From the NCBI GenBank assembly GCA_022072455.1, contig JAJVHY010000017.1:124001-188000 (forward strand): a stretch of DNA of 64,000 nt, written 5' to 3'. This DNA comes from Verrucomicrobiia bacterium. Lineage in GTDB: Bacteria > Verrucomicrobiota > Verrucomicrobiia > Palsa-1439. The notes below the pieces were generated by a model that ran no database searches, had not been told where the DNA came from, and worked only from the letters and a program-made list of their open reading frames with translations. Position numbers and translations under genes: made by a program. Each line of letters opens with the position of its first letter. The first letter of the stretch is position 1. Positions 5,183 to 26,566 of this stretch are shown piece after piece.

Positions 5183-6102
5183 GATTTCTCTTCATCCTGC
5201 TCCTCACAACCTCGGCCTTTGCCGACACCAACGCGGTCACGCGCGGCCTGGCTTGGCTCGCATCCCAACAACGCGCCGACGGCTCCTGGAGCACCAACGT
5301 TGCGTTGAACTCCTTGCCGGTCCTCGCGTTCCTCTCCGCCGGCCGGCCGCTCGACGCGCAACTCGAACGCGCGGTCAGCCACATCATCGCACAGCAAACC
5401 CCGGCCGGCGCTTTCACGAATGGCGGCGCGATGATGTTTGGGCAAGGCATTACCACGTTCATGCTCGCCGAAGTTGCCGGCATGAGCCGCGAAGGCGCGA
5501 AACTCACCGCCCATCTCAACAAAGCCGTCCGCTTCATACTGACAGCGCAAGCCGTCGAAAAAGGCGACATCCATGCCGGCGGGTGGCGCTATTTTCCCGA
5601 TTCCAAAGACAGCGACCTCGCCGTCACCATCTGGCAGGTGGTCGCATTACGCGCCGCGCAGAATGCCGGCATCCGTGTTCCGCAGGAGAGTCTTGATCGC
5701 GCCGGTCACTACGTCAACCGGTGCCGCCGCCCCGACGGCGGCTTCGCCTACCAACCCGGTGGCCAACCTAATGCCGGCCGCACCGCTGCCGGTATCATCG
5801 CGTTGCGGATGTGCGGCCAATTCGACTCGCCGGCCATTGAGCGTGGCCAGGATTGGCTGAAGGAGCATCCCTTGAAATGGGACAGCCCCTATCCGTATCA
5901 CTCCGCATTTTTCTGTGCTCAAGCCCGGCTGGCCTTCGACCCGGCCGTGCTCACTGCGCATCAGTTACCGGATGGAAGCTGGCCGGCACCGCCCAATTCG
6001 ATTGACGAAACGGATGCCGGCCCGCTCTACCGGACTGCCATGGCCATTCTCGCCCTGACGGCCCGGGACCATTTCCTCCCGGTCTTCATGGTCAACGATT
6101 GA
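5179..6102 (+). CDS. Secreted prenyltransferase/squalene-oxidase-repeat (alpha/alpha toroid) protein
   Basis: 307 aa from the ATG at 5179, which overlaps the bioD stop and starts a clean signal peptide (MRFLFILLLTTSAFA). Repeats follow with the toroid signature, such as GLAWLASQQRADGSW, GGWRYFPDSKDSDLAVT, CRRPDGGFAYQPGG and LPDGSWPAPP. These repeats are shared with squalene/hopene cyclases and prenyltransferases, but the DXDD cyclase motif is not evident, so I expect a non-enzymatic or unknown periplasmic role. It is a distant paralogue of the gene at 12885-14066. Tail-to-tail overlap with the TMTC-like gene at 6092. Confidence 0.8.
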   Translation: MRFLFILLLTTSAFADTNAVTRGLAWLASQQRADGSWSTNVALNSLPVLAFLSAGRPLDAQLERAVSHIIAQQTPAGAFTNGGAMMFGQGITTFMLAEVAGMSREGAKLTAHLNKAVRFILTAQAVEKGDIHAGGWRYFPDSKDSDLAVTIWQVVALRAAQNAGIRVPQESLDRAGHYVNRCRRPDGGFAYQPGGQPNAGRTAAGIIALRMCGQFDSPAIERGQDWLKEHPLKWDSPYPYHSAFFCAQARLAFDPAVLTAHQLPDGSWPAPPNSIDETDAGPLYRTAMAILALTARDHFLPVFMVND

Positions 6103-7462
6103 GCAACTCCAGATTCCGGCGCGCATCCACCAGCGTCGGCTTCAATTCCAACGCCCGTTCCAAATGCACCCGCGCCTCGCCGGTATTCCCGCGCATCAAT
6201 AAAATCGCGCCGAGTCGTTCCTGGGCATCCGCAAACCGGGGATTCAACTTCACTGCTTCCCGGGCATGAAACTCCGCCGTCTGAAAATCCCGTTCGCCCA
6301 CGGCGTACCCGGCCACACTGAAATGCGCCATCGCCGAATTTGGATCTTTCTTCACCGAATCCGTCCACAACGTCTTTCCATCTTTCCAATCCGGCAACCG
6401 GAGCATCGTCAGCGTCGCAAACCAGACCGCACCGACAACGCCCACCACCTTCACCGCCCGCGCCGGCAAACTCAACGCCAACAGCAGAAACGGTCCGAGC
6501 ATCGCCAAATAGAGATACCGGTCGGCACGTACCGTGGGATGCGGCACGAGTTGAAGCACCGGTAATAGCGCGATCAAAAACCAGCCCAACGCAAACCAAC
6601 CCCACCGGCGTTCCCGCTTGATCGCCCAACCCCACACCGTCGCCCAACCAACTGCTGCCAACAAGCCGGCCGTGGAAGCACGCTCCACATAAAAATTATT
6701 CAGGCGCACCGGCCACACGAGTGTCGTGAGATATTCGCCGAGGACTTGGAACATCGTGCGCGTCCAATTCCAAACCGAAGGAAAATTTTCGGCGAGCTGA
6801 CTCGATTCCTGGTGCCCCAGCACGCGCATCACCGCCGCAAACGCCGCCGGCACGAAGAAGAGCCACGTTCGTTGTACAGCCGTGCGCCACGGCGTTCGTT
6901 CCCGGTAAACCTCGTACCAGAACAACAGCGCCGGCATCACAATCACCAACGCGTGCGACAACGCCGCCAGAGTGAAACACAGCAACGCAAGCAACCGGCG
7001 CCGCGGATAAGCGAGCCACGCTAGCAATACGAAACAGGTGCCGAGGACGTTCTTACGTTCCGCGATCCACGCGACGCTTTCCACTTGCACCGGATGCCAC
7101 GCAAACCAAACCGCCACCGTCACCGCCACCGGTAAGTTTTTCGTCCAGCGAAAGAGCAGCAACAGCAGTAACCCGGCATTCAGTGCGTGTAGGAGAGTCT
7201 GGGTGACGTGATAGCCGACGAACCGGCCACCCCACACCCAATGATCCACGGCAAGGCTGAGGTATTTGATGGGGTAATAGTCGGTGGAAAATATCGAGGT
7301 GAAGATCGACTTGAAGCCTTGCATCCCCGGCTGTGTGACCAAGGGATTTTGCAGCACGTTGACGTCATCATCCCAAAACAACATCTGGTGCGACCACGTC
7401 GGACTGAACAGCAGCAGCGTCAGGACGGCGAGGACCAGCGCGAAGCGATGTTCAGGTTTCAC
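6092..7462 (-). CDS. Polytopic membrane protein with C-terminal TPRs (TMTC-like putative glycosyltransferase)
   Basis: 456 aa. An N-terminal signal-anchor helix is followed by a periplasmic loop with WDDDVNV near residue 31, an acidic motif where GT-C enzymes bind the metal or lipid-sugar. Roughly ten membrane helices follow, with HPVQVESVAWIAERKNVLG in a loop. The C-terminal 100 residues are TPR repeats (AMAHFSVAGYAVGERDF, RFADAQERLGAILLMRG). The layout matches eukaryotic TMTC1-4, which O-mannosylate cadherins; bacterial homologues are uncharacterised. Start overlaps the M23 gene by 11 bases, so it ends the deoC operon. Confidence 0.75.
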   Translation of the reverse strand: MKPEHRFALVLAVLTLLLFSPTWSHQMLFWDDDVNVLQNPLVTQPGMQGFKSIFTSIFSTDYYPIKYLSLAVDHWVWGGRFVGYHVTQTLLHALNAGLLLLLLFRWTKNLPVAVTVAVWFAWHPVQVESVAWIAERKNVLGTCFVLLAWLAYPRRRLLALLCFTLAALSHALVIVMPALLFWYEVYRERTPWRTAVQRTWLFFVPAAFAAVMRVLGHQESSQLAENFPSVWNWTRTMFQVLGEYLTTLVWPVRLNNFYVERASTAGLLAAVGWATVWGWAIKRERRWGWFALGWFLIALLPVLQLVPHPTVRADRYLYLAMLGPFLLLALSLPARAVKVVGVVGAVWFATLTMLRLPDWKDGKTLWTDSVKKDPNSAMAHFSVAGYAVGERDFQTAEFHAREAVKLNPRFADAQERLGAILLMRGNTGEARVHLERALELKPTLVDARRNLELLNR

Positions 7463-8090
7463 GAGGCGCGACTTTACGCGGTGGAAGGAATCTCTTCAAG
7501 AACTCCACCGGGTCATACGAATTCCCGGCCGCATCGCGGACTTCAAAATGCAGGTGGGGAGCGATTGCCATCCAGTTTCGCGCATCCGCGATCCGGGAGG
7601 TCTGCCCCATTTTGCCAATCCGCTGACCGACACCGGTGGCAATCTCGGCCAGATGTCCGTACAAGGTGAAGAACTTCTCGCCGCTAATCGGCCAGCGATG
7701 CTCGACGACAACATGCTTTCCAAAATCCGAAGCATACTCATCGTCGACGGCTTCCACCACGACGCCATCGAACACTCGGAACACGTCGTCGTCCGGCACC
7801 AATGTCGGTTCATCACTCTCGAAGTCACGGCCGGTTGCGCAATCCGTGAAGATGACGCGTGTGGTCTTACCGGTGGCGGTGACGGATACCGGCGCGATGT
7901 CGCAGCCGCGGTGAAAACGTTTGCCGCAATCGCGCGTGAAGCCGGGCTTGCCGTAGTCGGCGTTGACGCGGGTGCGGGCGAAGAATTTCTCCGGCGCGTC
8001 GAAGAGCTGCCGGTTCGGCGTCGGCCAGGCGATTTGGATTTTTTCGTTGGCCGGTAACGGAACGAAGCTCACAGCCCGATCGGATGCCAC
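7452..8090 (-). CDS. M23 family metallopeptidase (LytM-like)
   Basis: 212 aa. The zinc ligands of the M23 fold are visible: HRGCD (HxxxD) near residue 60 and HLHFEV near residue 179, with YGHL before it. M23 enzymes cut peptide cross-links in peptidoglycan, or act as inactive activators; here all metal ligands appear intact. No signal peptide is seen at this start, so export would need another route or a different start. Its start overlaps the upstream aldehyde dehydrogenase-like gene by 22 bases and its end overlaps the TMTC-like gene, indicating translational coupling. Confidence 0.82.
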   Translation of the reverse strand: MASDRAVSFVPLPANEKIQIAWPTPNRQLFDAPEKFFARTRVNADYGKPGFTRDCGKRFHRGCDIAPVSVTATGKTTRVIFTDCATGRDFESDEPTLVPDDDVFRVFDGVVVEAVDDEYASDFGKHVVVEHRWPISGEKFFTLYGHLAEIATGVGQRIGKMGQTSRIADARNWMAIAPHLHFEVRDAAGNSYDPVEFLKRFLPPRKVAPRET

Positions 8091-14115: not shown

Positions 14116-16227
14116 TCAAAACCGCGCGATGCCGGCTACGACGAGGTTGCGGCCGGGCTCGTTGAGACCGGAGCCGTGGATCCGGTAATCCTTGTCGGCG
14201 ATGTTTTCGAGTGCGGCGCTGAGGCTGAAGTTTTGATTGATTCGCCACCCACCGCGCACGGTCAGCACCCCGTACCCCGGGGTGCCGCCGGGCGGGATGC
14301 GTTGGGTGTCACCCTTGTCGCCGGAGGAGAGTTTGTCTTGTTTGTCAGACAGCAAGGTCACGAATTCCGCCCAGAACTTGCGCGAGGGCGCGTCCCAGCG
14401 GAGGCCGAGTTCGCTGGTCAACGGCATGACGCGGCTGAGATATTCTTCGCGGCTGGCCGGGGCGGAGGTCGGGTACCCGTCCGCTTCACCTTCCATCCAC
14501 GTGATCCAACCGAATGCGGCCAGTTGCGAGTGGAACTGCCAGCGGGCGCTCGCTTCGACACCGTGAACAAAGCCGTCGCCGCCGTTGCGTTTCGTGACTT
14601 CGTTGGCGCCGTTGACGATGTTACCGGTCGGCTGGCGGACGATCATGTCATCAATGAACGTGTAAAAGTACGCCAGCTCGGTGGTTATTTTGTCGAACTG
14701 GGCTTTGATGCCGGTCTCCAACGCAATGAACGTCTCGGGATCGAGGTCCGGGGCCGCGGTCTCGATTTCGCCGCTGCGGGCGATGTCCAACCGGGTCAAA
14801 TCGGAGAGGTTTGGCGCGCGGAAGCCCTGGGACACGCCGGCAAACCAGCGCCAGTGATCGTCTTCGTCGAGACGCACCTGCACCCGGCCACTGCCGACCA
14901 CGCTGTGCCAGTCTTCGTCCAATGACGTGACACCTGCTGTGACCGGATCACGGACCCGGTTGGCATCGGCATGCGAGTAGGTGTACCGGCTACCGAGGAT
15001 GAGTTCCGCGCGCGAAGTGACCGGGAGCTGGTCTTGCAAATAAACCGCGATGGAATCGTACGCCGCATCATCAGCAACCGGGCCCTGAATCGCTTTTGTC
15101 ACGGTGCCGTTGGTGGCGGTGGATATTTGTCCTGACTGCACCCAATCCCGGTAATACTCCGCGCCGAAGGTCAACGTCCCAACCGGAGTAGGGGAGATGA
15201 ATTGCGCCCAGAATCCGCCGGTATGTACTTGCACGTCGGATTCGTCGCGGACGCCATTGCTGCGGACGCGAGTCATGTCTTCGCCTTGATAATGATACGA
15301 GGCGCTGAGTTTCAGGGATTCAATCGGACCGTCCATTTTCTGCGCGTGATACTGGAGGTAGGCGAGGTCGCGGGCTTGATCGAAAGTGTGGACGAGATCG
15401 GTCCCAATGGCCGAGCCGTGGAAGCTCTTGGCGTAGATCGTCCGATGCGTCCGCCACGCGTCGTTCTGATCCACATGTTGAAACGCGGCGACGAGTTTGC
15501 GGTCATCGTCGAACCGGTATTCCATTTTCGCGTCGCCGTCCCATTCGTTGTAGCCGGTCTTGCGCTGAACGCCGGTCGGATCGCCGGCCCGCAGGTCGCC
15601 GTAGTCCTTGGCGGTGCCGCCGACGAAGAGGCCGATGTGGTCGCCCGAATTGGCGCCAAATTCCGCGCGGCCGGTATGCGAGTCTTCGGCGGTGGCGTAT
15701 CGATAGGAGACGGCGCCATCCCAATCGCGCGCGGTGCCGAATTCTTCGCGGCGCTTCGTCAACGCCTGCACGGTGCCGCCGATGGCGTCGCTGCCGTAGA
15801 GCACCGAGGCTGGGCCTTTCAGGACTTCGAGCCGGGCGATGGACTGCGCGTCAACCGTGTTCCAGTACTGGTTCGGGCCTTCCCGAAAAGTTGAATTGTT
15901 CAGACGAATCCCATCAATGAGAAAAACTGTCCGAAACCCGGTGAACCCGCGAATGAACGGCGAGCCTTGCCCGTGGCCGGTCTTCTGCACGAGGACGGCC
16001 GGGGTTTCCTTCAATGCCTCGGGGACCGTCCGCACCATCTGTTCTTCGGCCAGCCGGTCGGTCGTCAGCGTCGTGAGCGTAAACGGGACGTCGAACATAT
16101 CTTGCTCCGTGCCGGTGGGCGTGACCACAATTGTTGGCAAGCGTTGGACCGTTTCGTTCGTTTGTCCAACGGCTGTCATTGTCCACACCACTGCGCTGCT
16201 GGCGAAGCCAATCCAAAAACCTTTCAT
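14116..16227 (-). CDS. TonB-dependent outer-membrane receptor
   Basis: 703 aa. Signal peptide, then the TonB box region (LPTIVVTPTGTEQ), the plug domain (VPEALKETPAVLVQKTGHGQGSPFIRGFTGFRTVFLIDGIRLNN, LEVLKGPASVLYGSDAIGGTV) and a C-terminal 22-strand barrel ending in the usual aromatic residue (VAGIARF). It imports a scarce ligand such as a metal chelate or cobalamin using TonB energy. A strong RBS (aaggaga) precedes the ATG. No riboswitch or clear Fur box is recognised upstream, so the substrate stays open. Confidence 0.92.
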   Translation of the reverse strand: MKGFWIGFASSAVVWTMTAVGQTNETVQRLPTIVVTPTGTEQDMFDVPFTLTTLTTDRLAEEQMVRTVPEALKETPAVLVQKTGHGQGSPFIRGFTGFRTVFLIDGIRLNNSTFREGPNQYWNTVDAQSIARLEVLKGPASVLYGSDAIGGTVQALTKRREEFGTARDWDGAVSYRYATAEDSHTGRAEFGANSGDHIGLFVGGTAKDYGDLRAGDPTGVQRKTGYNEWDGDAKMEYRFDDDRKLVAAFQHVDQNDAWRTHRTIYAKSFHGSAIGTDLVHTFDQARDLAYLQYHAQKMDGPIESLKLSASYHYQGEDMTRVRSNGVRDESDVQVHTGGFWAQFISPTPVGTLTFGAEYYRDWVQSGQISTATNGTVTKAIQGPVADDAAYDSIAVYLQDQLPVTSRAELILGSRYTYSHADANRVRDPVTAGVTSLDEDWHSVVGSGRVQVRLDEDDHWRWFAGVSQGFRAPNLSDLTRLDIARSGEIETAAPDLDPETFIALETGIKAQFDKITTELAYFYTFIDDMIVRQPTGNIVNGANEVTKRNGGDGFVHGVEASARWQFHSQLAAFGWITWMEGEADGYPTSAPASREEYLSRVMPLTSELGLRWDAPSRKFWAEFVTLLSDKQDKLSSGDKGDTQRIPPGGTPGYGVLTVRGGWRINQNFSLSAALENIADKDYRIHGSGLNEPGRNLVVAGIARF

Positions 16228-16328
16228 GCTGTCTCCTTAAAATAGGTAGTTCAACAGTGCGACACGCGGCTAGAAAATATGTTCCAGAAAAATTTGAAAA
16301 TATTATCCACCTGCGTCACGCTGCCGCC

Positions 16329-16721
16329 ATGCCGAATTCGCAACAGTTGCTCGCCCTAACCAAAACCGATCTCGACCGTCAGTCGCCGGAACAACTGCTT
16401 GCCCCGGCCAAGGTCGTTTCTTTACCGGACGCGCACCTCGTCAAAGCCGCGCTCTACCTGAAGTTGGGTTGTCTGGAGGAATGTCACCGGCTCGCGCAGC
16501 AGTATCCGACGCCGACTGGCAATTACTGGCACGGCATCATGCACCGGCACGAAGGCGACATCAGCAATTCCAAGTACTGGTACGCCCGTGTCGGCCGGCA
16601 TCCGGTGCTTGATGCCATTGGTGGTTACCCGAAAAATGCCGAGGCAGAAGCGCGGGAGTTTGCGCTGTTGCTGGAGTACACGATCCGCGCGGCCACAGGC
16701 ACTTCCGACGATTCTGAATAA
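16329..16721 (+). CDS. Hypothetical protein, 130 aa, cytoplasmic
   Basis: Begins at the ATG at 16329 (MPNSQQLLALTKTDLD); longer in-frame starts would run into the receptor promoter region. It is helical and soluble with no signal peptide; the middle (DAHLVKAALYLKLGCLEECHRLAQQYPTPTGNYWHGIMHRHEGDISNSKYWYARVGRHP) looks like a single degenerate TPR-like helix pair with conserved Trp/His. I do not recognise the family. Divergent from the TonB receptor gene, with a 101-base shared upstream region. Confidence 0.65.
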   Translation: MPNSQQLLALTKTDLDRQSPEQLLAPAKVVSLPDAHLVKAALYLKLGCLEECHRLAQQYPTPTGNYWHGIMHRHEGDISNSKYWYARVGRHPVLDAIGGYPKNAEAEAREFALLLEYTIRAATGTSDDSE

Positions 16722-16773
16722 CTTTTCACAGGGCACGTCTCAACGGTAACGCGCACGAAAGGAGCGCAACTGA

Positions 16774-17232
16774 ATGAAAAGTTTACTGAAAATAATCGCA
16801 GTGGGAAGTGCGTTCGCCCTCGGGAGCGCCGCCCTGCCGGCCAAGAGTTACGCGGGCGACCGCGAATGGGCCACGGTCGGCAAAGTGTTGACCGGGGTTG
16901 CCGCTGTTGGTGTGTTGTCCGCCATCATTCACGATGCGCATCACCCCCGCGTGGGAGTATCCGTGGAAGTGGGGCATTGCCCACCACCGCCACCGCGCTG
17001 GAATTCCGGCCACTACGAAACCCGGCAGGAACGGGTCTGCATTCCCGGCTATTGGACAACAGTGACTGAGCCCGCGGTATACCGGTACGAACGGCGCGGG
17101 TGCCATACCGTACAGATTCTGGTGCGTCCCCCGTGCACCCGGCGCGTCTGGGTGCCGGAACGATATGAAATCCGCGAAACCCGCGTTTGGGTGCCGGGCC
17201 GGTATGACGACCGGTATGCCTACAACCGGTAA
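16774..17232 (+). CDS. Secreted Tyr/Arg-rich repeat protein
   Basis: 152 aa with signal peptide (MKSLLKIIAVGSAFALGSAALPAKSYAG) and a good RBS (aaggag). A short hydrophobic helix (VGKVLTGVAAVGVLSAII) is followed by imperfect repeats around the pattern RxxVWVPGxYxx (RVCIPGYWTT, RRVWVPERYEIRETRVWVPGRYDD). Such YXXW/VPG repeats occur in small exported proteins of Gram-negative bacteria with no known function. Three cysteines could form disulfides. A strong terminator follows directly. Confidence 0.72.
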   Translation: MKSLLKIIAVGSAFALGSAALPAKSYAGDREWATVGKVLTGVAAVGVLSAIIHDAHHPRVGVSVEVGHCPPPPPRWNSGHYETRQERVCIPGYWTTVTEPAVYRYERRGCHTVQILVRPPCTRRVWVPERYEIRETRVWVPGRYDDRYAYNR

Positions 17233-17248
17233 ACGGATGTAAACTTGG

Positions 17249-17283
17249 GAAGCGGCGGTCACGATGACCGCCGCTTCTTTTTT
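17249..17283 (+). terminator. Rho-independent terminator
   Basis: A perfect 12-bp stem (GAAGCGGCGGTC / GACCGCCGCTTC) with a 5-base loop ACGAT is followed by six T. It ends the gene at 16774-17232. The ATG at 17264 lies inside the 3' half of this hairpin, which argues against that codon as the start of the next gene. Confidence 0.92.
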
Positions 17284-17320
17284 GCTGTCATCGTACCCAG
17301 GTGCCGGGCAAGATGCCGGC

Positions 17321-17998
17321 GTGAAAACGCGCCCGTGGTTGCCCTATGTGTTGCCGATGGCGATTTACATGGGGTTTTTGCTCATCCAAACCCCCGGCAA
17401 TCTGCTCTGGATTTATCCGCTGAAAACGGTGGCGGTGGCCGCGGCATTGTGGTGGTTTCGCCGGGAATACTCTGAGTTGGTCCCGCGATTGTCGTGGCTC
17501 GCGGTGACGGTTGGTTTGGTGGCCATCGCGATTTGGATTTTCGGCGATCCATATTACCCGAAAATCGGCGAACTCTTGTTTGCGACGGAGATGAAGTTGA
17601 GCCAGTGGTTGAACTGGCCACCGCCGGTAGCGGACACAACACCGCCTTTCGATCCAACTGGCCGGTATTGGTTCATTGTCTTTCGGATTATCGGCGCGGT
17701 GGTGGTGGTGCCGTTGATGGAAGAATTGTTCTGGCGGGCTTTTCTGATTCGGTGGTTGGTGAGCGAGGATTTTCGGAGTGTGCCGGTCGGGACGTACACG
17801 TGGACATCGTTTGCGTTCACGACGGTGTTGTTCGGGTTGGAGCATGATCAGTGGTTGGCCGGGTTATTTTGTGGGGCGCTGTACAATTGGTTGTTGTACC
17901 GGACGCGGAGTGTGTGGGCGTGCGTCATCGCGCACGCGGTGAGCAACGCCGCGCTGGCCGGGTGGGTGTTGGCGCGTGGGGATTGGAAGTTTTGGTGA
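17321..17998 (+). CDS. CAAX prenyl protease-related membrane protease (CPBP/ABI family)
   Basis: 225 aa from the GTG at 17321 (MKTRPWLPYVLPM); the ATG at 17264 sits in the terminator hairpin. Several membrane helices carry the CPBP motifs: MEELFWRAFLIRW (EExxxR), FGLEHDQW and HAVSN, which place the Glu, His and Asn/His metal ligands in the membrane. The length and order resemble the CAAX-protease-related family found beside exosortase/PEP-CTERM systems, but no exosortase is visible here. It begins an operon of six tightly packed genes; the next starts one base after its stop. Confidence 0.82.
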   Translation: MKTRPWLPYVLPMAIYMGFLLIQTPGNLLWIYPLKTVAVAAALWWFRREYSELVPRLSWLAVTVGLVAIAIWIFGDPYYPKIGELLFATEMKLSQWLNWPPPVADTTPPFDPTGRYWFIVFRIIGAVVVVPLMEELFWRAFLIRWLVSEDFRSVPVGTYTWTSFAFTTVLFGLEHDQWLAGLFCGALYNWLLYRTRSVWACVIAHAVSNAALAGWVLARGDWKFW

Positions 17999-18004
17999 GA
18001 TGAA
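17981..18004 (+). repeat. 24-base direct repeat, copy 1 (protease gene end / TMTC gene start)
   Basis: The 24 bases covering the last codons of the protease gene (DWKFW, stop) and the first codons of the next gene recur exactly at 19659-19682, in front of the second TMTC-like gene. The repeat spans stop and start signals rather than a coding domain, so it is best read as a footprint of tandem duplication. Confidence 0.8.
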
Positions 18005-19634
18005 ATACGACCGGCGACTCGGACTGGCGGTGATAACCGCATCGCTTGCGGCAATTGTTGTGTGTTGGCCGTGTTTGCGCGGTGGTGTGTTGAGTAATAT
18101 GGATGACGACGTTTACCTCGAAAAGGCTCGCGAGGCCGGCGGGATCACCGCGCGTGGCCTCCGCTGGGCATTCACTGAAGTGGAGCCGTACTATCAACCG
18201 CTAGTGCGGGGGAGTCATCTTCTTGTCTACACAATCAGCGGCACGAATCCGGTCGGGCACCACGCGGTGAACCTTGGGTTGCACGTGCTGAATACCCTGT
18301 TGGTGGTGTTGCTGGCGTATCAACTCCTCCCCGGTGGGGTAGCGTGGTTGGCGGGGGTGTTGTTTGCGGTGCATCCGTTGCAGGCGGAGAGCGTGGCGTG
18401 GATTTCTGGGCGAACACAATTACTGTGCGGCGCGTTCATGCTGGGAGCCGCGCTGGCTTACTTGAAGGCTGAACAGTCGGGGCAACGAAAGTGGCTTTGG
18501 CTGGTGGCGACGTTCTATATGTTGGGATGGTTGTGCAAGCCGATTGTTGCGACGTTGCCGTTGGTCTTGTTGGTGCTGGATTGGTTTCCGTTGCGCCGCC
18601 ATGTCGGATTGTCTTGGTGGCGGTTGCTTCGTGAAAAACTGTGGATGTTCGCGGTGACGGCACTGATGGCGCCGCTCACTTATGTGTTTGCGCAGCGCAG
18701 CGGGATGGCAGTGGACACCGGCGAGTTAGGATGGCTGGAACGCGTTTTGGTGGCGGGCCGGGCCGTGGTGTTCTATCTGTGGAAGTTTGTTTGGCCGGCT
18801 TGGTTGTCGCCATTCTACCCGTTACCGGGGGAGGTGCGAGCCGGGAATCCTGATTTCTGGGTTCCGATACCGCTTCTGGTGATCTTTGGAATAGCAATTT
18901 GGCGCTGGCGCCAGCGATTGCCGGCGCTGGCTGCGGCTTGGTTTGTTTATCTCGCGTTGCTCTTACCGGTACTGGGCTTGACGCAATTTGGCTACCAGTC
19001 AGCCGCGAATCGCCATATGTATCTCGCGATGATCCCGTTGGTGCTCCTGGTGGTTGGCGGCGCGGGTCGATTTTGGGAGCGGCTGGCCGGCGGTGGAAGG
19101 GTTGGGTTGGCCGTTTTGACGTTGGGGGGTGTCTTTGCACTTGGCATCCGGTGTCATGCAGCAGTCAGCATGTGGCGAGATGATGAGACGCTGTGGCGGA
19201 ATGTTTTGCACTGGTATCCCGATTATGGGGTCGCCAACCTGAAAGTCGCACACGCTGCGGTGGCGAAGCGAGATTTTGTGACCGCTCGACGCTGCGCGGA
19301 ACGGGCTGCCGTCGCGTGGCCTGATAATGTCGAAGTTCAGGGGTTGCTCGGATTGGTATGCCTGAAGGATGGGGATGCGCCAGCCGCGATTCGCGTGCTG
19401 TTGCCTCTGGCGGAGCGGACGGATGTGTGGCTCCCACTGGCTCGTTACAATTTGGCGTCCGCATATGTCAGAGTGGGATCGAATGCCGCGGCGGTAGTCG
19501 AGTTAGGCAAAGTTATGGCTCGCGAACCACAGTTTCGTGAGATAGCACGGCGGGATCGCGAACTGGTCGCGCTGCGGTCGGATGAAAGGTTTTTACAATT
19601 GCTTCAAACTACGAGCGGAGAGGAAGAACCGTGA
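18000..19634 (+). CDS. TMTC-like polytopic membrane protein with TPRs (putative glycosyltransferase)
   Basis: 544 aa from the ATG at 18000, one base after the protease stop. After the first helix comes the acidic loop motif SNMDDDVYL near residue 35, then YYQPL and GHHAVNLGLHVLN, about ten helices, and LFAVHPLQAESVAWISGRTQLL in a loop; the C-terminal 130 residues are TPR-like (VANLKVAHAAVAKRDFVTARRC). Topology and motifs fit the GT-C/TMTC type that would move a sugar from a lipid carrier to a protein on the outer face of the inner membrane. Activity is inferred. Confidence 0.76.
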   Translation: MKYDRRLGLAVITASLAAIVVCWPCLRGGVLSNMDDDVYLEKAREAGGITARGLRWAFTEVEPYYQPLVRGSHLLVYTISGTNPVGHHAVNLGLHVLNTLLVVLLAYQLLPGGVAWLAGVLFAVHPLQAESVAWISGRTQLLCGAFMLGAALAYLKAEQSGQRKWLWLVATFYMLGWLCKPIVATLPLVLLVLDWFPLRRHVGLSWWRLLREKLWMFAVTALMAPLTYVFAQRSGMAVDTGELGWLERVLVAGRAVVFYLWKFVWPAWLSPFYPLPGEVRAGNPDFWVPIPLLVIFGIAIWRWRQRLPALAAAWFVYLALLLPVLGLTQFGYQSAANRHMYLAMIPLVLLVVGGAGRFWERLAGGGRVGLAVLTLGGVFALGIRCHAAVSMWRDDETLWRNVLHWYPDYGVANLKVAHAAVAKRDFVTARRCAERAAVAWPDNVEVQGLLGLVCLKDGDAPAAIRVLLPLAERTDVWLPLARYNLASAYVRVGSNAAAVVELGKVMAREPQFREIARRDRELVALRSDERFLQLLQTTSGEEEP

Positions 19635-19658
19635 AGCGATTGAGAATCGCGCCGCGAG

Positions 19659-19682
19659 GATTGGAAGTTTTGGTGAGATGAA
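19659..19682 (+). repeat. 24-base direct repeat, copy 2 (upstream of second TMTC gene)
   Basis: Exact copy of 17981-18004. Here the segment no longer encodes the end of a protease: it lies after the stop of the first TMTC-like gene (19634) and supplies the start region of the second one. The similarity drops sharply outside the 24 bases. Confidence 0.8.
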
Positions 19683-21408
19683 GCACCCGTTGACGAAACT
19701 GCTGGTTGGGTTGGGGGTGGTCACATTGCTCGTGCATTGGGGGGCGGTCGGGAATGAGTTCACGTACTGGGATGATTGGGGCTATGTGGAACTGGCCAAT
19801 CAACATCGGTTGACGTGGGCCGGGATCAAATGGGCATTTACCAGCACTTACATTTACTATCAACCGCTGACGTGGTTGTCGCATGGATTGGATTGCGTGT
19901 TGTGGGGCGTGATGCCGGCGGGGCATCACGCGCAGAGCGTCGTGTGGCATGCGTTAAACGCGGTGTTGGTCGCCGGGTTGGCGTGGCAGTTGAGCAAGTG
20001 GGCGGCACCGTGGTCGGAGACGGAGCGGTTGTATTTTGCCGGCTGGGTCGGGATCGTGTTCGCGGTACATCCGTTGCAGGTGGAGGCAGTGGCGTGGATT
20101 GCCGGGCGGAAGACAGTTTTGGCGGCTTTTTTTACGTTGCTGGCGGCTATGGCGTATGTGCGCTGGGCGAACGCCGAGCACGAGCGCCGGTGGTGGTGGG
20201 CGATGTTGGGGGCGTATGGGCTGGCGTTGTTGAGCAAGCCGATGGCGGTGTCATTGCCGGTGGCGTTGGTGGCGCTGGATATTTTCCCGTTGCGCCGTGT
20301 TGAAGTGCGCGGGTGGTTCGGAATCATTCGCGAAAAATGGCTGTTGCTTTTGCTGGCCGGGATTGTGGGAGTGGCGACGATAATCGGTCAGGCGGAGGTG
20401 GGGGCGTTGACGGCGGTGCCGCTGGGGCCGGTGGAGCGCGGTTTGGTGGCGGCGCGGAGTTTGTATTTTTATTTGTGGAAAATGCTCTTCCCGGTCTGGC
20501 TTTCGCCGTTTTATCCGTTGGGGGAATGGAACAATTACCGGCAGGCGGAGTTTGTCTTGCCGGTGGTGATCTGCTTCTTGATCGGCGGGGTGGCGATCGC
20601 GTTGTGGCGGCGGGCCCCGCAGGTGGCGGCGACGGGAGTGGGATATTTGGCGTTTGTGCTGCCGGTGTCGGGTTTGTTTCAGGCGGGCGGCCAGGCGGTG
20701 GCTGACCGGTTTGCGTATTTGCCGATTGTGCCGGTGTTGTTGTTGTGCGGGGGCGGATTGGTGGTGTTGCGCCGGCAATTGGCGGAGAAGTACCGAGGGG
20801 TGTTGGGCATTGTGTTGGGGGCGCATTTGTTGTGGTTGGTGGCGCGGACGCAACAGCAGATACCGGTCTGGCATGATTCAGCGCGGATGTGGCAGGAGGT
20901 TTGTGACCAAATCAGCGCTTCGACGACAGAGTATGGATACGCGGCGGCCGCGTTGACACGGGAGAAACGGTATGACGAGGCGCTGATTTACGCCGAGCAG
21001 GCGTATCAGCTTTTGCCGGCGACGGCGGCGGATTCGCGCGAGCAGGTGGGGAAAATTTTCCGGGATTTGGCGGCGACGTTTGTCGAGGTCCGGCGGTTTC
21101 CGGAGTGCGTTTTGGCGGGGTTCCGGGCGACGGAGTTGTTGCCGGGGGATGCAGTGGGGCACGCGGCGCTGGGGTTGGGGTTGTTGAAGGTGGGGAAACC
21201 GCGCGAGGCGGTGGCGCCGCTGGAACGAGCGGTGGAGTTGCGCGGGAATTTGCCGGCGGCCCGGTATAATCTGGCGTGCGCGTATGCCGGGACGGGGCGG
21301 TTGGAGGATGCGGCGCGGGTGTTGGCGGAGGCGGTGGCGTTGGAACCGGGCTTGGCCGGTTTGGCGGAGCGGGATCCGGCCTTGGCGCGGTTGCGGGAGG
21401 GGAAATGA
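19678..21408 (+). CDS. Second TMTC-like polytopic membrane protein with TPRs (putative glycosyltransferase)
   Basis: 576 aa from the ATG at 19678. Same plan as its neighbour: first helix, then EFTYWDDWGYVELAN (WDD acidic motif near residue 33), WAFTSTYIYYQPLTWLSHGLDC, GHHAQSVVWHALNAVL, IVFAVHPLQVEAVAWIAGRKTVL and about ten helices, then a TPR-rich C-terminus (KRYDEALIYAEQAYQLLP, GHAALGLGLLKVGKPREAVAPLERAVELRG). It is a tandem paralogue of the gene at 18000. The plus strand is markedly rich in G and T here. Its stop overlaps the YbaK-like start (ATGA). Confidence 0.77.
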   Translation: MKHPLTKLLVGLGVVTLLVHWGAVGNEFTYWDDWGYVELANQHRLTWAGIKWAFTSTYIYYQPLTWLSHGLDCVLWGVMPAGHHAQSVVWHALNAVLVAGLAWQLSKWAAPWSETERLYFAGWVGIVFAVHPLQVEAVAWIAGRKTVLAAFFTLLAAMAYVRWANAEHERRWWWAMLGAYGLALLSKPMAVSLPVALVALDIFPLRRVEVRGWFGIIREKWLLLLLAGIVGVATIIGQAEVGALTAVPLGPVERGLVAARSLYFYLWKMLFPVWLSPFYPLGEWNNYRQAEFVLPVVICFLIGGVAIALWRRAPQVAATGVGYLAFVLPVSGLFQAGGQAVADRFAYLPIVPVLLLCGGGLVVLRRQLAEKYRGVLGIVLGAHLLWLVARTQQQIPVWHDSARMWQEVCDQISASTTEYGYAAAALTREKRYDEALIYAEQAYQLLPATAADSREQVGKIFRDLAATFVEVRRFPECVLAGFRATELLPGDAVGHAALGLGLLKVGKPREAVAPLERAVELRGNLPAARYNLACAYAGTGRLEDAARVLAEAVALEPGLAGLAERDPALARLREGK

Positions 21409-21851
21409 AAATTCCAGAGCGGTTGATCAAGTTTTTGGATGAACAGAAGGTCCGGTATGAAATCCGGCATCACCCGGTGGCCTACACGGCGCAAGAATTG
21501 GCGGCCATCGAGGGCGTGCCGGGCCGAATACACGCGAAGGTCGTGGTGGTGAAGATCGCCGGCAAGCTGGCGTTGGCTGTGTTGCCGGCGGATTGTCGAA
21601 TTGATCTGGCGCGCTTGGGGGCGGTGATGGCGACGGAGGCGGAGTTTCGGGATGTGTTCCCGGATTGCGCGACGGGGACGATGCCGCCGTTTGGTCAGTT
21701 GTATGGGGTGCCGACGCATCTTGACCGGCGGTTGACGGAGAATGAGCGGATTATTTTTGAGGCGGGGACGCACAGTGATGCGATTCTGATGCGGTCTGCC
21801 GATTATGAGCGGTTGGCGCAGCCGGTCGTGGGCGATTTTGGGGTGAAATGA
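21405..21851 (+). CDS. YbaK/ProX-type aminoacyl-tRNA deacylase domain protein
   Basis: 148 aa from the ATG at 21405. Matches the tRNA-editing domain: HHPVAYTAQELAA near residue 22, HAKVVVVKIAGKLALAVLPAD with the conserved lysine, then GTMPPFGQLYGVPTHLDRRL. Free-standing domains of this type hydrolyse mischarged aminoacyl-tRNAs. Here it is embedded between putative glycosyltransferase genes with four-base overlaps on both sides, which is an odd place for an editing enzyme; a link to the operon's membrane proteins is unknown. Confidence 0.85.
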   Translation: MKIPERLIKFLDEQKVRYEIRHHPVAYTAQELAAIEGVPGRIHAKVVVVKIAGKLALAVLPADCRIDLARLGAVMATEAEFRDVFPDCATGTMPPFGQLYGVPTHLDRRLTENERIIFEAGTHSDAILMRSADYERLAQPVVGDFGVK

Positions 21852-23629
21852 TGCGCAAGCCGGTATTGGTCGGTTTGTTTTTATTGCTGGCGGTGGCGGC
21901 GCATTGGGTGGTGCGGTGGCCGGAGTTGGCGCAGTTGCGCGGTCGGGATGGGTACGTCATGGCGGGGCCGGATTGTTATATGCACTGGCGGTTGGTGACG
22001 CGGGCGTTGGCGGGTGAAGGGGTGCGGATTCGTTGGATGATGGAGGATAATGCTCCCTATGGACGGCCGAATGAATGGACTTCGCCGATGACGATTGTGA
22101 GTGTGGCGGGAGTGCGATTGGTGGAGGCAGTGAGCGGGTGGCCGCGGGACAAGGCGTTGCGGGTGACGCGGTTGTGGGTGGGGCCGGTGATCGGGTTGGT
22201 GGCGTTAGGGGGGCTGGCGTGGTTGGGCTGGCGGACGGGCGGGTGGTTGATGGTTGTTGGGTGGGTGGGGACGTGGGTGGCGCTGAAGCCGGTCATTGAG
22301 GCGAGTGGTTTTGGGAATACTGATCATCATGGGTTGAATCAGGTGTTGGCGATTTTGATGTTGGGGGGCGCGGTGGCGTGGTGGCGGAATCCAACGCGGG
22401 CCGGGGGAATTTTTGTTGGATTGGTTTCGGCGGTGGCGTTGTGGTCGGCCGGGTCGGAGTTGTTGCCGGCGTGGGGGTTGGTGGCGTTGTGGGCGGGCTG
22501 GGAGATGGCGCACCGGCAGCGGGTGGAGTTTTGGCGGTGGTGGTGGATTGTCGGCGGAATCGGAACGGCGATGGCGTTGGTTTTCGAGTTTTGGCCGGCA
22601 GTGTGGCAGACGCGGTTGGAGTTGTTGTCGGTCTGGCATGTGACGTTGTGGGGAATCACCGGGGGATTGTTGGAGTTTTTGTGTCGAGAGCAGCGGCGCG
22701 ACCGGCAACGGGTGGCAGTGGGTGTGGCGGTGTTGTTGACGTTGGTGGTGGCGGCGGCGGTGCGCGGGTTCAAGCTGGATGCATTGCACGTGATGCAGGA
22801 TCCACGGTTTGTGTTGCACGCGACGAATATAGTGGAGTTGGAGTCATTTGGCCGGTTTGGGGTGGAGGAATCGCTCCGGTATTGGTGGTGGGCGGTGGGG
22901 TTGTTGCCGGTGGTGGTGGCAGTGGGGTGGTGGCGGTTTCGGGAGTTGAATCCGGCCGGGCGGTGGTTGGTGATTTGTGCCGGGGTGTTTCTGTTTTTGA
23001 CTTTCCAGCAACGGCGGTGGGACGTGTTTTTGGTGGTCGCGCTGGTTTTGGCTGGCGGGATGTTGGTGAGCGAATTTTGGCCGCGGTGGCGTTGGGTTGG
23101 GTTGGTCGGGTTGGTGGGGTTGACGGTGCCGACCTGGTTCGCAGTGGCGCGCGAATGGGAGTCGGCGCGGAGTTATGATTGGACGGGGAATGTGACGGTG
23201 CGATTGGAGGCGGTGTCGGAGTGTTTGGGGCGACAGGCACCGGGCACAATCGTGTTGGCACCATGGGATCAAGGGAGTGTGTTGGCGGGTTTGGGGCAGG
23301 TGCGGGTGGTCGGGTCGGGGTATTGGTCGAATTTGGATGGGTTGATGGATGAGCAGGTGTTGTTGACGACGGAGTCACCGGAGGTTTTTTGGGGGATCGT
23401 GCAGCGACGGGGGATTGAGTTTTTGGTGGCGCGGGAGCCGGCAGCGTTTTTGTTGGATTTGACGTTGGCAAAGGTCGTGGTTAGCGGTCGGGTGCCGGCA
23501 GACGTGGAGGTGCGGCGAACGGTAGTGTGGCAGGTGGCAGCCCGACGGCAAGCGGCGGCATTGGTGTGTCCGGAATTGCCGACGGAGTGGCGAATTATTC
23601 CGTTGGGTCGGGAGGTGAAGCGACAATGA
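21848..23629 (+). CDS. STT3/AglB-like putative oligosaccharyltransferase
   Basis: 593 aa, about 11-13 membrane helices and a soluble C-terminal domain. Features resembling STT3/PglB/AglB: a first periplasmic loop with AGPDCYMHWRL (acidic residue D42 followed by an aromatic and His/Arg), MMEDNAPYGRPNEWTSP, then GNTDHHGLNQ (D159-H160-H161, the DHH of the second conserved loop), LESFG in the place of the TIXE/SVSE motif, and APWDQGS at 471-477 in the place of WWDYG. Such enzymes transfer a lipid-linked glycan to Asn. The divergent WWDYG motif means substrate and even activity must be tested. Overlaps its neighbours by four bases. Confidence 0.68.
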   Translation: MMRKPVLVGLFLLLAVAAHWVVRWPELAQLRGRDGYVMAGPDCYMHWRLVTRALAGEGVRIRWMMEDNAPYGRPNEWTSPMTIVSVAGVRLVEAVSGWPRDKALRVTRLWVGPVIGLVALGGLAWLGWRTGGWLMVVGWVGTWVALKPVIEASGFGNTDHHGLNQVLAILMLGGAVAWWRNPTRAGGIFVGLVSAVALWSAGSELLPAWGLVALWAGWEMAHRQRVEFWRWWWIVGGIGTAMALVFEFWPAVWQTRLELLSVWHVTLWGITGGLLEFLCREQRRDRQRVAVGVAVLLTLVVAAAVRGFKLDALHVMQDPRFVLHATNIVELESFGRFGVEESLRYWWWAVGLLPVVVAVGWWRFRELNPAGRWLVICAGVFLFLTFQQRRWDVFLVVALVLAGGMLVSEFWPRWRWVGLVGLVGLTVPTWFAVAREWESARSYDWTGNVTVRLEAVSECLGRQAPGTIVLAPWDQGSVLAGLGQVRVVGSGYWSNLDGLMDEQVLLTTESPEVFWGIVQRRGIEFLVAREPAAFLLDLTLAKVVVSGRVPADVEVRRTVVWQVAARRQAAALVCPELPTEWRIIPLGREVKRQ

Positions 23630-24804
23630 CGATAGCTGATTTGGTAGGCGATGAAGCGTTGCGCCGGCATGAGTTTCCGGTATGTGCGGAAAAGACATTT
23701 TTGGCGCATGCGGCGGTGTGTCCGCTGCCGCGGCGGGTGACGAAGGCCGTCCAAGATTACATGACATTGGCCGGCACAGATGATCAAGAAGCGGTCTTGC
23801 CGGCGGGGGTGGTGCGGGAAACGCGGGAGCTGGTGGCGCGGTTGCTGGAGGTGAGTCCGGCAGAGGTCGCGTTTACCGGGTCAACTTCGATGGGGTTGGG
23901 TTTGGTGGCGAGTGGGCTGGACTGGCAGGCGGGTGAGAATGTGGTGTGTTACCGGGATGATTATCCGGCCAATGTTTATCCGTGGATGGAATTGGCGAAA
24001 CGCGGAGTGGAGGTACGGTTCGTGGAGCCGGCAGTTTATGGCCGGGTGACGGTGGAGGATGTGGCGCGGGTTGTGGATGAACAGACCCGGTTGGTGGCGT
24101 TGGCGAGTGTGCATTTTGTATCGGGCTGGCGGTTGGCGGTGGAGCAGATTGGGGAGTTTTTGAGGAAAAAGGGGATTTTGTTTTGTTTGGATGGGATTCA
24201 GAGTTTTGGGGCGTTGCGAACGAGTCTCCGGTATGTGGATTTTGCAGCGGCGGATGCTCACAAATGGCTGCTGGGGCCGCTCGGAGTCGCGCTTTTCTAT
24301 GTCCGGCGTGAGAATTTTGACCGATTGCGGCCGGCGTTGATCGGTTGGCACAATGCGGTCTGTCCGGATTTCGTGGTGCAAGAGCGGTTGGTTTTTTGGC
24401 CGGATGCACGCCGGTATGAGCCGGGGAGTTTGAATCTGGCAGGTTTGATTGGTTTGCGAGCGGCACTGACGCTGATTATGGAGTTGGGGTTGGAGGCTGT
24501 CGAGGCGCGGATATTGGACTTGAGGCGGGATTTGGTTGAGCAAGGGCAGGCGCTGGGGTGGGAGGTGATTGGGCCGACGATTGAGGGTGGATCGGGGATT
24601 GTGTCGTTTGGATTGGCGAAGGGGGTGGCGGATGAAGTTCAGGCGCAATTGGCAGCGGCGGGAGTTGTGGCGTCAATCCGGACGCTGCGCGGTGGAATGA
24701 AGTGTGTGAGGTTGTCGCCACATTTTTATAACACCAGCCAAGAGATTGCAGCGGCGATCAAGGCGTTGAAGGTGCGGCCGGGGGCTCTATCAAGAAAATG
24801 TTAA
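23626..24804 (+). CDS. Class V aminotransferase / cysteine desulfurase-like PLP enzyme
   Basis: 392 aa from the ATG at 23626, which overlaps the STT3-like stop. PLP fold type I: TGSTSMGLGLVASGL cofactor loop, FCLDGIQSFGALR (Asp contacting the PLP ring) and the Schiff-base lysine in DAHKWLLGPLG. A catalytic cysteine loop of NifS/IscS type is not evident, so it is closer to the isopenicillin-N epimerase/SufS-like subgroup of unknown substrate. It is the last gene of the 17.3-24.8 kb operon; no terminator hairpin is obvious after it. Confidence 0.82.
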   Translation: MTIADLVGDEALRRHEFPVCAEKTFLAHAAVCPLPRRVTKAVQDYMTLAGTDDQEAVLPAGVVRETRELVARLLEVSPAEVAFTGSTSMGLGLVASGLDWQAGENVVCYRDDYPANVYPWMELAKRGVEVRFVEPAVYGRVTVEDVARVVDEQTRLVALASVHFVSGWRLAVEQIGEFLRKKGILFCLDGIQSFGALRTSLRYVDFAAADAHKWLLGPLGVALFYVRRENFDRLRPALIGWHNAVCPDFVVQERLVFWPDARRYEPGSLNLAGLIGLRAALTLIMELGLEAVEARILDLRRDLVEQGQALGWEVIGPTIEGGSGIVSFGLAKGVADEVQAQLAAAGVVASIRTLRGGMKCVRLSPHFYNTSQEIAAAIKALKVRPGALSRKC

Positions 24805-24893: not shown

Positions 24894-25600
24894 GGGGCAG
24901 GATCCCATCCGCGGGGGCGAGGAATAGGTCAACAAAATCAGTAATGGAGGCAAGATATGAGTCAGTTGCTTAAGAAAAAGATCGGTGGCTTTACGCTCAT
25001 CGAACTTCTCGTCGTCATCGCGATCATCGCGATTCTCGCAGGGATGCTGTTGCCAGCGTTGGCGACGGCCCGTGAAAAAGCGCGGCGCACGCAATGTTTG
25101 AACAACCTGAAGCAGATTGGTTTGGCGATTGCGCAGTATGCCGGGGACTTTAATGACAAGTTGCCATTGAGTGGTTCGGCTGGTTCAGGTGCTGAAGCGC
25201 AATTTTCGCTACTCGCCAACACGCTTGGCAGTCCGAAAGTTTTGGTTTGTCCTTCGTCGAGCAAAACGGCAACCAATGCATTTGCAGCGACCAATTACGC
25301 CGGCAATGCCAATTGTTCGTATGCCTACCAAGGCACGCCGGGCACTGGTTCGACCGCCAGTAATCTGACGTGGCAATCCAGTTCCGATGAAATCATTGCG
25401 TGGGATTCTGGCGCGGCAGTCACGGTCAATAGCGCACCAGTGGCTTGGACCGTTGGCGGCAATCACAAGACCTCGGGTGGCAATATCCTGTTCAATGACG
25501 GACATGTGTCATTCGCGACCAAGGTGCCGACCAATGCGCCCGCCGGCGTATTGAACCAATAAATACCTGTCTTACTCAGACCAATCACGAGAAGCCCTGC
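24894..25600 (+). repeat. Long direct repeat, copy 1 (prepilin-like gene)
   Basis: From the GGGGCAGGATCCC stretch in the leader, through the whole gene, to the left arm of the terminator, this block matches 25859-26566. The only changes I could see are one extra G in the leader of copy 2 and the base change at the end of the terminator arm. Flanks on both sides are clearly diverged. Confidence 0.95.
24957..25562 (+). CDS. Prepilin-like protein (type II pseudopilin family), copy 1
   Basis: 201 aa. Type IV prepilin leader [30 protein letters not shown], cleaved by PilD between Gly and Phe, with Glu5 of the mature protein present. The C-terminal part has the planctomycete/verrucomicrobial signature [20 protein letters not shown], an H-x(10)-DG variant of the H-X9-DG motif. 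Such proteins are secreted or assembled by type II/IV-like machineries. Good RBS (tggagg) nine bases upstream. It has its own promoter and terminator and is identical in protein sequence to the copy at 25923. Confidence 0.9.
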
Positions 25601-25858: not shown

Positions 25859-26566
25859 GGGGCAGGATCCCATCCGCGGGGGGCGAGGAATAGGTCAACA
25901 AAATCAGTAATGGAGGCAAGATATGAGTCAGTTGCTTAAGAAAAAGATCGGTGGCTTTACGCTCATCGAACTTCTCGTCGTCATCGCGATCATCGCGATT
26001 CTCGCAGGGATGCTGTTGCCAGCGTTGGCGACGGCCCGTGAAAAAGCGCGGCGCACGCAATGTTTGAACAACCTGAAGCAGATTGGTTTGGCGATTGCGC
26101 AGTATGCCGGGGACTTTAATGACAAGTTGCCATTGAGTGGTTCGGCTGGTTCAGGTGCTGAAGCGCAATTTTCGCTACTCGCCAACACGCTTGGCAGTCC
26201 GAAAGTTTTGGTTTGTCCTTCGTCGAGCAAAACGGCAACCAATGCATTTGCAGCGACCAATTACGCCGGCAATGCCAATTGTTCGTATGCCTACCAAGGC
26301 ACGCCGGGCACTGGTTCGACCGCCAGTAATCTGACGTGGCAATCCAGTTCCGATGAAATCATTGCGTGGGATTCTGGCGCGGCAGTCACGGTCAATAGCG
26401 CACCAGTGGCTTGGACCGTTGGCGGCAATCACAAGACCTCGGGTGGCAATATCCTGTTCAATGACGGACATGTGTCATTCGCGACCAAGGTGCCGACCAA
26501 TGCGCCCGCCGGCGTATTGAACCAATAAATACCTGTCTTACTCAGACCAATCACGAGAAGCCCCGC
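25859..26566 (+). repeat. Long direct repeat, copy 2 (prepilin-like gene)
   Basis: Second copy of the block at 24894-25600, 966 bases further on. The coding part is identical; the copies diverge just outside the leader and in the terminator loop and right arm. Confidence 0.95.
25923..26528 (+). CDS. Prepilin-like protein (type II pseudopilin family), copy 2
   Basis: Identical in sequence to the gene at 24957-25562, including the leader peptidase site, the Cys pair region (CPSSSK) and the H-x(10)-DG end. The coding DNA shows no difference that I could find, whereas the flanks have diverged, which points to recent duplication or ongoing gene conversion. RBS tggagg is kept. With two autonomous units, doubled gene dosage of an abundant exported protein is a fair reading. 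Confidence 0.9.

Follow-up and report, generated by a model that had tools for sequence, protein, structure and literature searches.

An operon that encodes a 593-amino-acid (593-aa) protein of the STT3/AglB oligosaccharyltransferase type, together with two proteins resembling the TMTC glycosyltransferases, lies on the plus strand at positions 17264 (or 17321) to 24804 of the stretch of Verrucomicrobiia DNA analysed here (64,000 nucleotides of contig JAJVHY010000017.1, GenBank assembly GCA_022072455.1; hereafter the window). We propose, with a probability of about 0.6, that this operon is a periplasm-facing glycosylation unit for exported surface proteins. The proposal is built on the fold and active-site register of the 593-aa protein, the homology of both enzyme types to known transferases, the recurrent linkage of their genes and the family to which the accompanying protease belongs. 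In our numbering the window lies on contig 8 of a genome that spans 4.8 Mb in 36 contigs, and genome counts given below were taken from searches.

Fold and family of the 593-aa protein

The 593-aa protein (21848–23629, plus strand) was modelled with AlphaFold at high confidence (pLDDT 91.3, pTM 0.91) and has a GT-C fold with a C-terminal globular domain. When the model was compared with the PDB by Foldseek, the 19 best matches were all to AglB, eukaryotic STT3 or PglB (E 3e-13 to 4e-9; TM-score to AglB 0.74), followed by DPY19 and then by ArnT and other GT-C proteins. The initial annotation had called this protein STT3-like on its motifs and had named a fold other than GT-C as the outcome that would count against it; AlphaFold and Foldseek, together with the hhalign comparisons given below, place it in the STT3/AglB/PglB fold with its catalytic residues in register. 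Direct family searches were far less informative. No Pfam match was obtained for the protein, PF02516 (STT3) was found neither in it nor elsewhere in the genome, and the only NCBIfam match, to the archaeosortase-A-associated STT3 model TIGR04154, was below threshold (19 bits against a cut-off of 450; E 3e-4).

Homologues were therefore considered as a family. Of those collected, 52 were aligned, the relatives fetched by name being Verrucomicrobia, Lentisphaerae and one Syntrophobacteraceae metagenome-assembled genome. The 52-member profile matched the solved C-terminal domain of Archaeoglobus AglB (3vu0; 2.6e-5), and a nine-sequence profile gave the same match with the PWDQG region aligned opposite WWDYG. 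TIGR04154 was the best family match, being found in 32 of the 52 members (best 7.3e-15). On these profiles and the structural model, the 593-aa protein and its homologues are best described as a divergent STT3-type family, strong matches to which (E < 1e-40) occur in 43 of 335 Verrucomicrobiia genomes. A C-terminal tail of at least 60 residues is carried by 43 of 56 distinct homologues and TPR matches were found in 32 of the 42 tails scanned, so that these proteins have a TMTC-like architecture built on an STT3-like module. One close homologue (42–43% identity; locus L033, 5104–7548) is from the Syntrophobacteraceae-labelled genome, reflecting either horizontal transfer or mis-binning.

Candidate active-site residues and the putative acceptor site

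The motifs named in the initial annotation are all in place, namely PDCYMH (containing D42), NTDHH (D159–H161) and PWDQG (472–476) in the 593-aa protein and, in each TMTC-like protein, a first-loop DD. The correspondence of the 593-aa motifs to AglB residues was established through a bridging protein of 711 aa from the same phylum (L136; contig 17 of genome G480), which matches PF02516 above the cut-off (8.6e-20), aligns with the family profile along most of its length (hhalign E 1.7e-10) and matches Archaeoglobus fulgidus AglB (3waj) by sequence at 1.1e-14. Counting residues through these two alignments places AglB D47, D161/H163, E360, R426 and WWDYG opposite D42, D159/H161, E330, R390 and PWDQG, respectively. 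AglB D47, D161/H163 and E360 are known metal or catalytic residues (the EL1, EL2 and EL5 acids) and R426 is a known lipid-phosphate ligand; R426 is also cited in PMC7801869. At the WWDYG site L136 itself has SWPYG. A second candidate bridge, L137, was set aside, its alignment being weak (43% probability).

Conservation within the family divides sharply along these lines. D42, H160, E330, R390 and W391 are invariant in all 52 homologues, and D159 and H161 are retained in 49 and 48 of them, so the motifs do not look like coincidence. The WWDYG position, by contrast, reads PWD in four of the five members of the window's clade (WSQ in the fifth) and SPNSS in most other homologues, while a YW[ES]N..G motif just downstream has invariant W, N and G. 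Since the catalytic residues are near-invariant but the WWDYG site is not, we infer that the catalytic core has been kept and the acceptor reader changed. The PWDQG that the initial annotation reported in place of WWDYG is at the right position, although only the small clade to which the window belongs has kept it. Recognition of N-X-S/T by the family is doubtful, and the N-glycan transfer to sequons that had been suggested is not implied, because SPNSS occupies this site in most of its members.

The TMTC-like proteins

TMTC-a (18000–19634, plus strand) consists of a membrane part with the DD motif and a TPR tail, for which TPR matches were obtained, and aligns with the TMTC-like family profile (A4); its open reading frame begins at GTG 17976, but the likely start is ATG 18000. 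TMTC-b (19678–21408, plus strand; AlphaFold pLDDT 90) likewise has the DD motif and a TPR tail. A profile of the membrane part (A4) matched a PF08409 (TMTC_DUF1736) protein that itself scores above the cut-off, L132, at 2e-70 and over the whole membrane part. Sequence comparison through this single bridge shows the TMTC-like proteins of the window to be homologous to TMTCs, as the initial annotation had supposed. PF08409 was absent from the Pfam matches of both proteins, and the genome's PF08409 matches lie elsewhere. The homology rests on the L132 bridge because the structural routes gave no fold evidence: Foldseek matches of a TMTC-like model were dominated by TPR proteins, and a profile restricted to the membrane part found no match in the PDB. 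Prokaryotic homologues of TMTCs have been noted previously, and seven active-site motifs have been proposed, including M1 (DD), M3 (RxD), M4 (KE(T/Q)xxT) and M7 (ERxxY) (PMC7801869). Besides the first-loop DD, the proteins of the window keep Lys in the KE(T/Q)xxT motif and R..Y in ERxxY. The TMTC-like family was found in 19 of 24 relatives, with a maximum of 40 copies per genome.

Linkage of STT3-like and TMTC-like genes

The presence of both enzyme types in one operon, which the initial annotation singled out as unusual, is real, and such neighbourhoods recur. TMTC-like genes lie near the STT3-like gene in seven of the 27 STT3-like loci for which genome counts were available (the window, L024, L029, L040, L041, L058 and L061), against 0.75 expected from the per-genome counts of TMTC-like genes. 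The corresponding P value, about 1e-6 before correction for kinship, is optimistic because the loci include pairs of kin and the window itself, yet the excess is still large. On the tree, the presence of a TMTC-like neighbour changes five times, and at least four of these changes are forced by supported branches. Tandem TMTC-TMTC-STT-STT arrays occur at L040 and L041, in genomes with only three or four TMTC genes each. In the genome studied here there are six TMTC-like genes in 4.8 Mb, and three of these are no more than 17 kb away from the STT3-like gene; the third is outside the operon at 6095–7495 on the minus strand and encodes a GT-C/TPR protein (G000:C8:130407-131444, 9e-97).

Other glycosylation genes also adjoin STT3-like genes, with GT2 glycosyltransferases at L024, L046, L057, L060 and L061 and a GtrA/DPMS protein at L033. 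Genes of either type are typical of polyprenyl-phosphate-sugar supply. The two remaining operon genes, which the initial annotation had included in a possible system, fared differently. Their assignments hold, as a YbaK/ProX-type aminoacyl-tRNA editing domain protein (21405–21851, plus strand; PF04073, 2.5e-18) and a pyridoxal phosphate (PLP)-dependent class-V aminotransferase/cysteine-desulfurase-like enzyme (23626–24804, plus strand; PF00266, 1.7e-49; below every NCBIfam cut-off), but both are probably passengers outside the system, because no homologue of either was found beside any other STT3-like gene searched.

The protease and the PEP-CTERM/exosortase connection

The first gene of the operon (17264–17998, plus strand; start ATG 17264 or GTG 17321, the latter being the one used in the initial annotation) encodes a CPBP/CAAX-type intramembrane protease (PF02517, 1.7e-15). 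The initial annotation had recognised the CAAX type but missed the more specific assignment to TIGR03008 (pepcterm_CAAX), which is matched at 8.7e-52 and 176 bits against a cut-off of 81. This is the only TIGR03008 copy in the genome. To our knowledge, and as its model description has it, the TIGR03008 family is confined to genomes with PEP-CTERM/exosortase systems. Exosortases (about three) were found at three places in this genome, together with 34 PEP-CTERM matches above the cut-off. Fusions of EpsH with CAAX proteins are on record in the 2006 description of these systems (PMC1569441).

Exosortase was present in all 43 genomes that match the STT3-like family strongly and in 282 of 335 overall (counted from two lists). 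Exosortases are close to universal in this class, however, and the genomes compared are related, so this co-occurrence is no more than suggestive. Six STT3-like loci have PEP-CTERM genes nearby, and at L028 and L029 these are directly upstream on the same strand. The adjacency looked striking at L028, L029 and L040, but is weak when set against genome-wide density, and was not adopted as proof.

Two of the genome's exosortase loci also carry a GT-C enzyme. At one (L030; contig 8) a PMT_2-type GT-C gene (14830–16686) is separated by a few bases from the exosortase gene (16698–17750). At the other (L031; contig 29) a DPY19-like protein (5897–7669; PF10034, 2.2e-24), with a weak PDB match to the C-mannosyltransferase dpy-19 (3.5e-4), adjoins the exosortase, and the locus includes an EpsI-like DUF3485 protein and a bacterial sugar transferase.

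Operon layout and flanking features

The open reading frame list places the six plus-strand genes in the order protease, TMTC-a, TMTC-b, YbaK-like, STT3-like and PLP enzyme. ATGA overlaps, which imply co-translation, are present at 21405 (TMTC-b/YbaK), 21848 (YbaK/STT3-like) and 23626 (STT3-like/PLP). One nucleotide separates the protease stop codon (17996–17998) from the TMTC-a ATG at 18000, and 43 nucleotides lie between the end of TMTC-a (19634) and the TMTC-b ATG at 19678. With three ATGA junctions and gaps of only 1 and 43 bases, the six genes read as one operon; the operon that the initial annotation described is therefore present, although it is overlapping at only three of its five junctions. 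An identical run of 20 bases (GGAAGTTTTGGTGAGATGAA), found at 17985 and 19661, spans both TMTC-like gene starts and points to a tandem duplication as the origin of TMTC-a and TMTC-b.

A terminator-like hairpin (17247–17279, plus strand; 15-pair stem and T run) is upstream of or overlaps the first gene, covering the alternative protease start ATG 17264; hairpins from the scan as a whole were not above those in shuffled sequence. Third-position GC skew is 0.38–0.77 across the six genes (17264–24804), an extreme excess of G on the coding strand. The STT3-like gene has the highest value of 110 open reading frames sampled from its own genome (median 0.02, 95th percentile 0.42) and the next highest (0.72) is a PMT_2 GT-C gene adjoining an exosortase; three STT3-like homologues elsewhere have values of 0.11–0.21. 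Downstream of the operon there is an exact 685-base direct duplicate (24913–25597 and 25879–26563, 966 bases apart), each copy of which holds the same gene for a 201-aa type IV pilin-like protein (N_methyl/SBP_bac_10); it is either a recent duplication or an assembly artefact.

Proposed function and alternatives

Our current working hypothesis is that the 593-aa protein would take a sugar from a polyprenyl-linked donor at the periplasmic side of the membrane, using a metal site formed by D42, D159–H161 and E330 with R390 holding the lipid phosphate, and would pass it to an exported acceptor protein through a site diverged from WWDYG. The TMTC-like proteins may add or extend sugars on the same clients from polyprenyl-phosphate-sugar, their TPR tails gripping the acceptor, and the TIGR03008 protease would process membrane-anchored clients, probably of the PEP-CTERM type. 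That the acceptor is a protein and not a lipid or polysaccharide, and that surface proteins are the clients, seems to us the best interpretation of the evidence; PEP-CTERM proteins are a plausible leading guess, and a guess only, because the P value for their enrichment against genome density is only 0.016.

Several observations weigh against this hypothesis. The 593-aa protein scores far under every STT3 family cut-off, and none of the other genomes searched has the exact six-gene order. Both acceptor and donor are inferred, and related GT-C folds are also found in enzymes whose substrates are lipids and polysaccharides. The PEP-CTERM enrichment near homologues is weak (six loci against 2.2 expected), and no PEP-CTERM gene was found in or near the operon of the window. 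Finally, two proposed catalytic acids are missing from the TMTC-like proteins: the Glu of KE(T/Q)xxT is replaced by Pro and the Asp of RxD by Thr or Gln. Because of these losses the O-mannosylation raised in the initial annotation is not implied, and the proteins may either have kept activity with a changed chemistry or be partly degenerate.

Among other explanations, it is possible, though we think it unlikely, that the GT-C proteins build or modify an exopolysaccharide or a lipid-linked glycan, in the manner of ArnT or arabinosyltransferases, the PEP-CTERM link then arising from exosortase loci situated among exopolysaccharide genes. Such an association is described in the 2006 account of PEP-CTERM/EpsH systems (PMC1569441), genes for a Bac_transf sugar transferase and an epimerase are present at one of the exosortase loci here, and Foldseek also finds ArnT and AftD. 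Those structural matches are, however, weaker, with E values of 1e-4 for lipid and polysaccharide GT-Cs against 1e-13 for STT3-type structures; all structure matches better than 1e-6 are protein glycosyltransferases (oligosaccharyltransferases and DPY19), and the TPR tails suit peptide binding. True N-glycosylation, with the 593-aa protein acting as a bona fide bacterial oligosaccharyltransferase that transfers oligosaccharide to Asn-X-Ser/Thr, we consider improbable: PWDQG does keep the W and D of WWDYG, within a fold and a set of catalytic residues that are AglB-like, but W-D is confined to the five-member clade of the window, in which one member has WSQ, and gives way to SPNSS elsewhere, YW[ES]N..G is invariant downstream, and the operon is without a gene set for lipid-linked oligosaccharide. 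If unrelated membrane proteins had become neighbours by chance, and only a compact genome layout held them together, this would account for the apparently unrelated YbaK and PLP genes and for a gene order that no other genome searched has; some relatives also have many TMTC-like genes (44 in genome G009). Such a chance grouping is very improbable, however, given that half of the six TMTC-like genes in this 4.8 Mb genome lie no more than 17 kb from the STT3-like gene, that the L040 and L041 arrays occur despite three or four TMTC genes per genome, and that the operon has ATGA overlaps.

Protein glycosylation by the operon thus remains our preferred reading. Much more speculatively, bacteria might have their own version of the archaeosortase A/AglB pairing, in which a Verrucomicrobia-wide STT3-type family, often TPR-fused and with an altered acceptor-reading site, joins TMTC-like transferases in glycosylating PEP-CTERM surface proteins sorted by exosortase, at a non-canonical motif. 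If the preferred reading is right, there would be a general STT3-based protein glycosylation with an AglB core and a different acceptor reader in a bacterial phylum for which none is described in the literature searched, and the choice of acceptor residue by STT3 enzymes could be studied in a natural variant. It would also bear on the origin of eukaryote-like protein glycosyltransferases, as STT3-, TMTC- and DPY19-like proteins are encoded in the same genome, and give the long-open question of the purpose of PEP-CTERM sorting a testable link to glycosylation.

Comparison with known systems

A few bacterial STT3 homologues within the euryarchaeal clade have been discussed (PMC4973528), and in the open-access literature searched we found no description of this STT3-like family or of an STT3/TMTC pairing. 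Archaeal AglB/STT3 proteins (GT66; PF02516, TIGR04154) resemble the 593-aa protein in fold (TM-score 0.74), in the order of transmembrane helices followed by a C-terminal globular domain, and in having D, DHH, E and QxR in register, but its sequence is below the family cut-offs and WWDYG is not kept in its family. Compared with A. fulgidus AglB, its C-terminal domain is much shorter, and most homologues have a TPR tail instead. Campylobacter PglB shares the STT3 fold (5ogl; E 2e-10, TM-score 0.59) but is more distant than AglB, and no pgl-type gene set surrounds the 593-aa gene. Human TMTC1–4 (PF08409), which O-mannosylate cadherins, have in common with the TMTC-like proteins a GT-C membrane part, the loop-1 DD, the K of KE(T/Q), the R..Y motif and C-terminal TPRs, whereas the window proteins have KP for KE and T or Q for the D of RxD, with no significant PF08409 match. 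The PEP-CTERM/exosortase (EpsH) system is represented by exosortases, many PEP-CTERM genes and the TIGR03008 protease of the operon, while STT3- and TMTC-like partners are not mentioned in those sections of its 2006 description that were searched. Archaeosortase A/AglB systems differ in that the operon partner here is the TIGR03008 protease, the exosortase itself being about 50 kb or more away, but they share with this genome the occurrence of an STT3-type enzyme alongside a sorting enzyme of the exosortase family.

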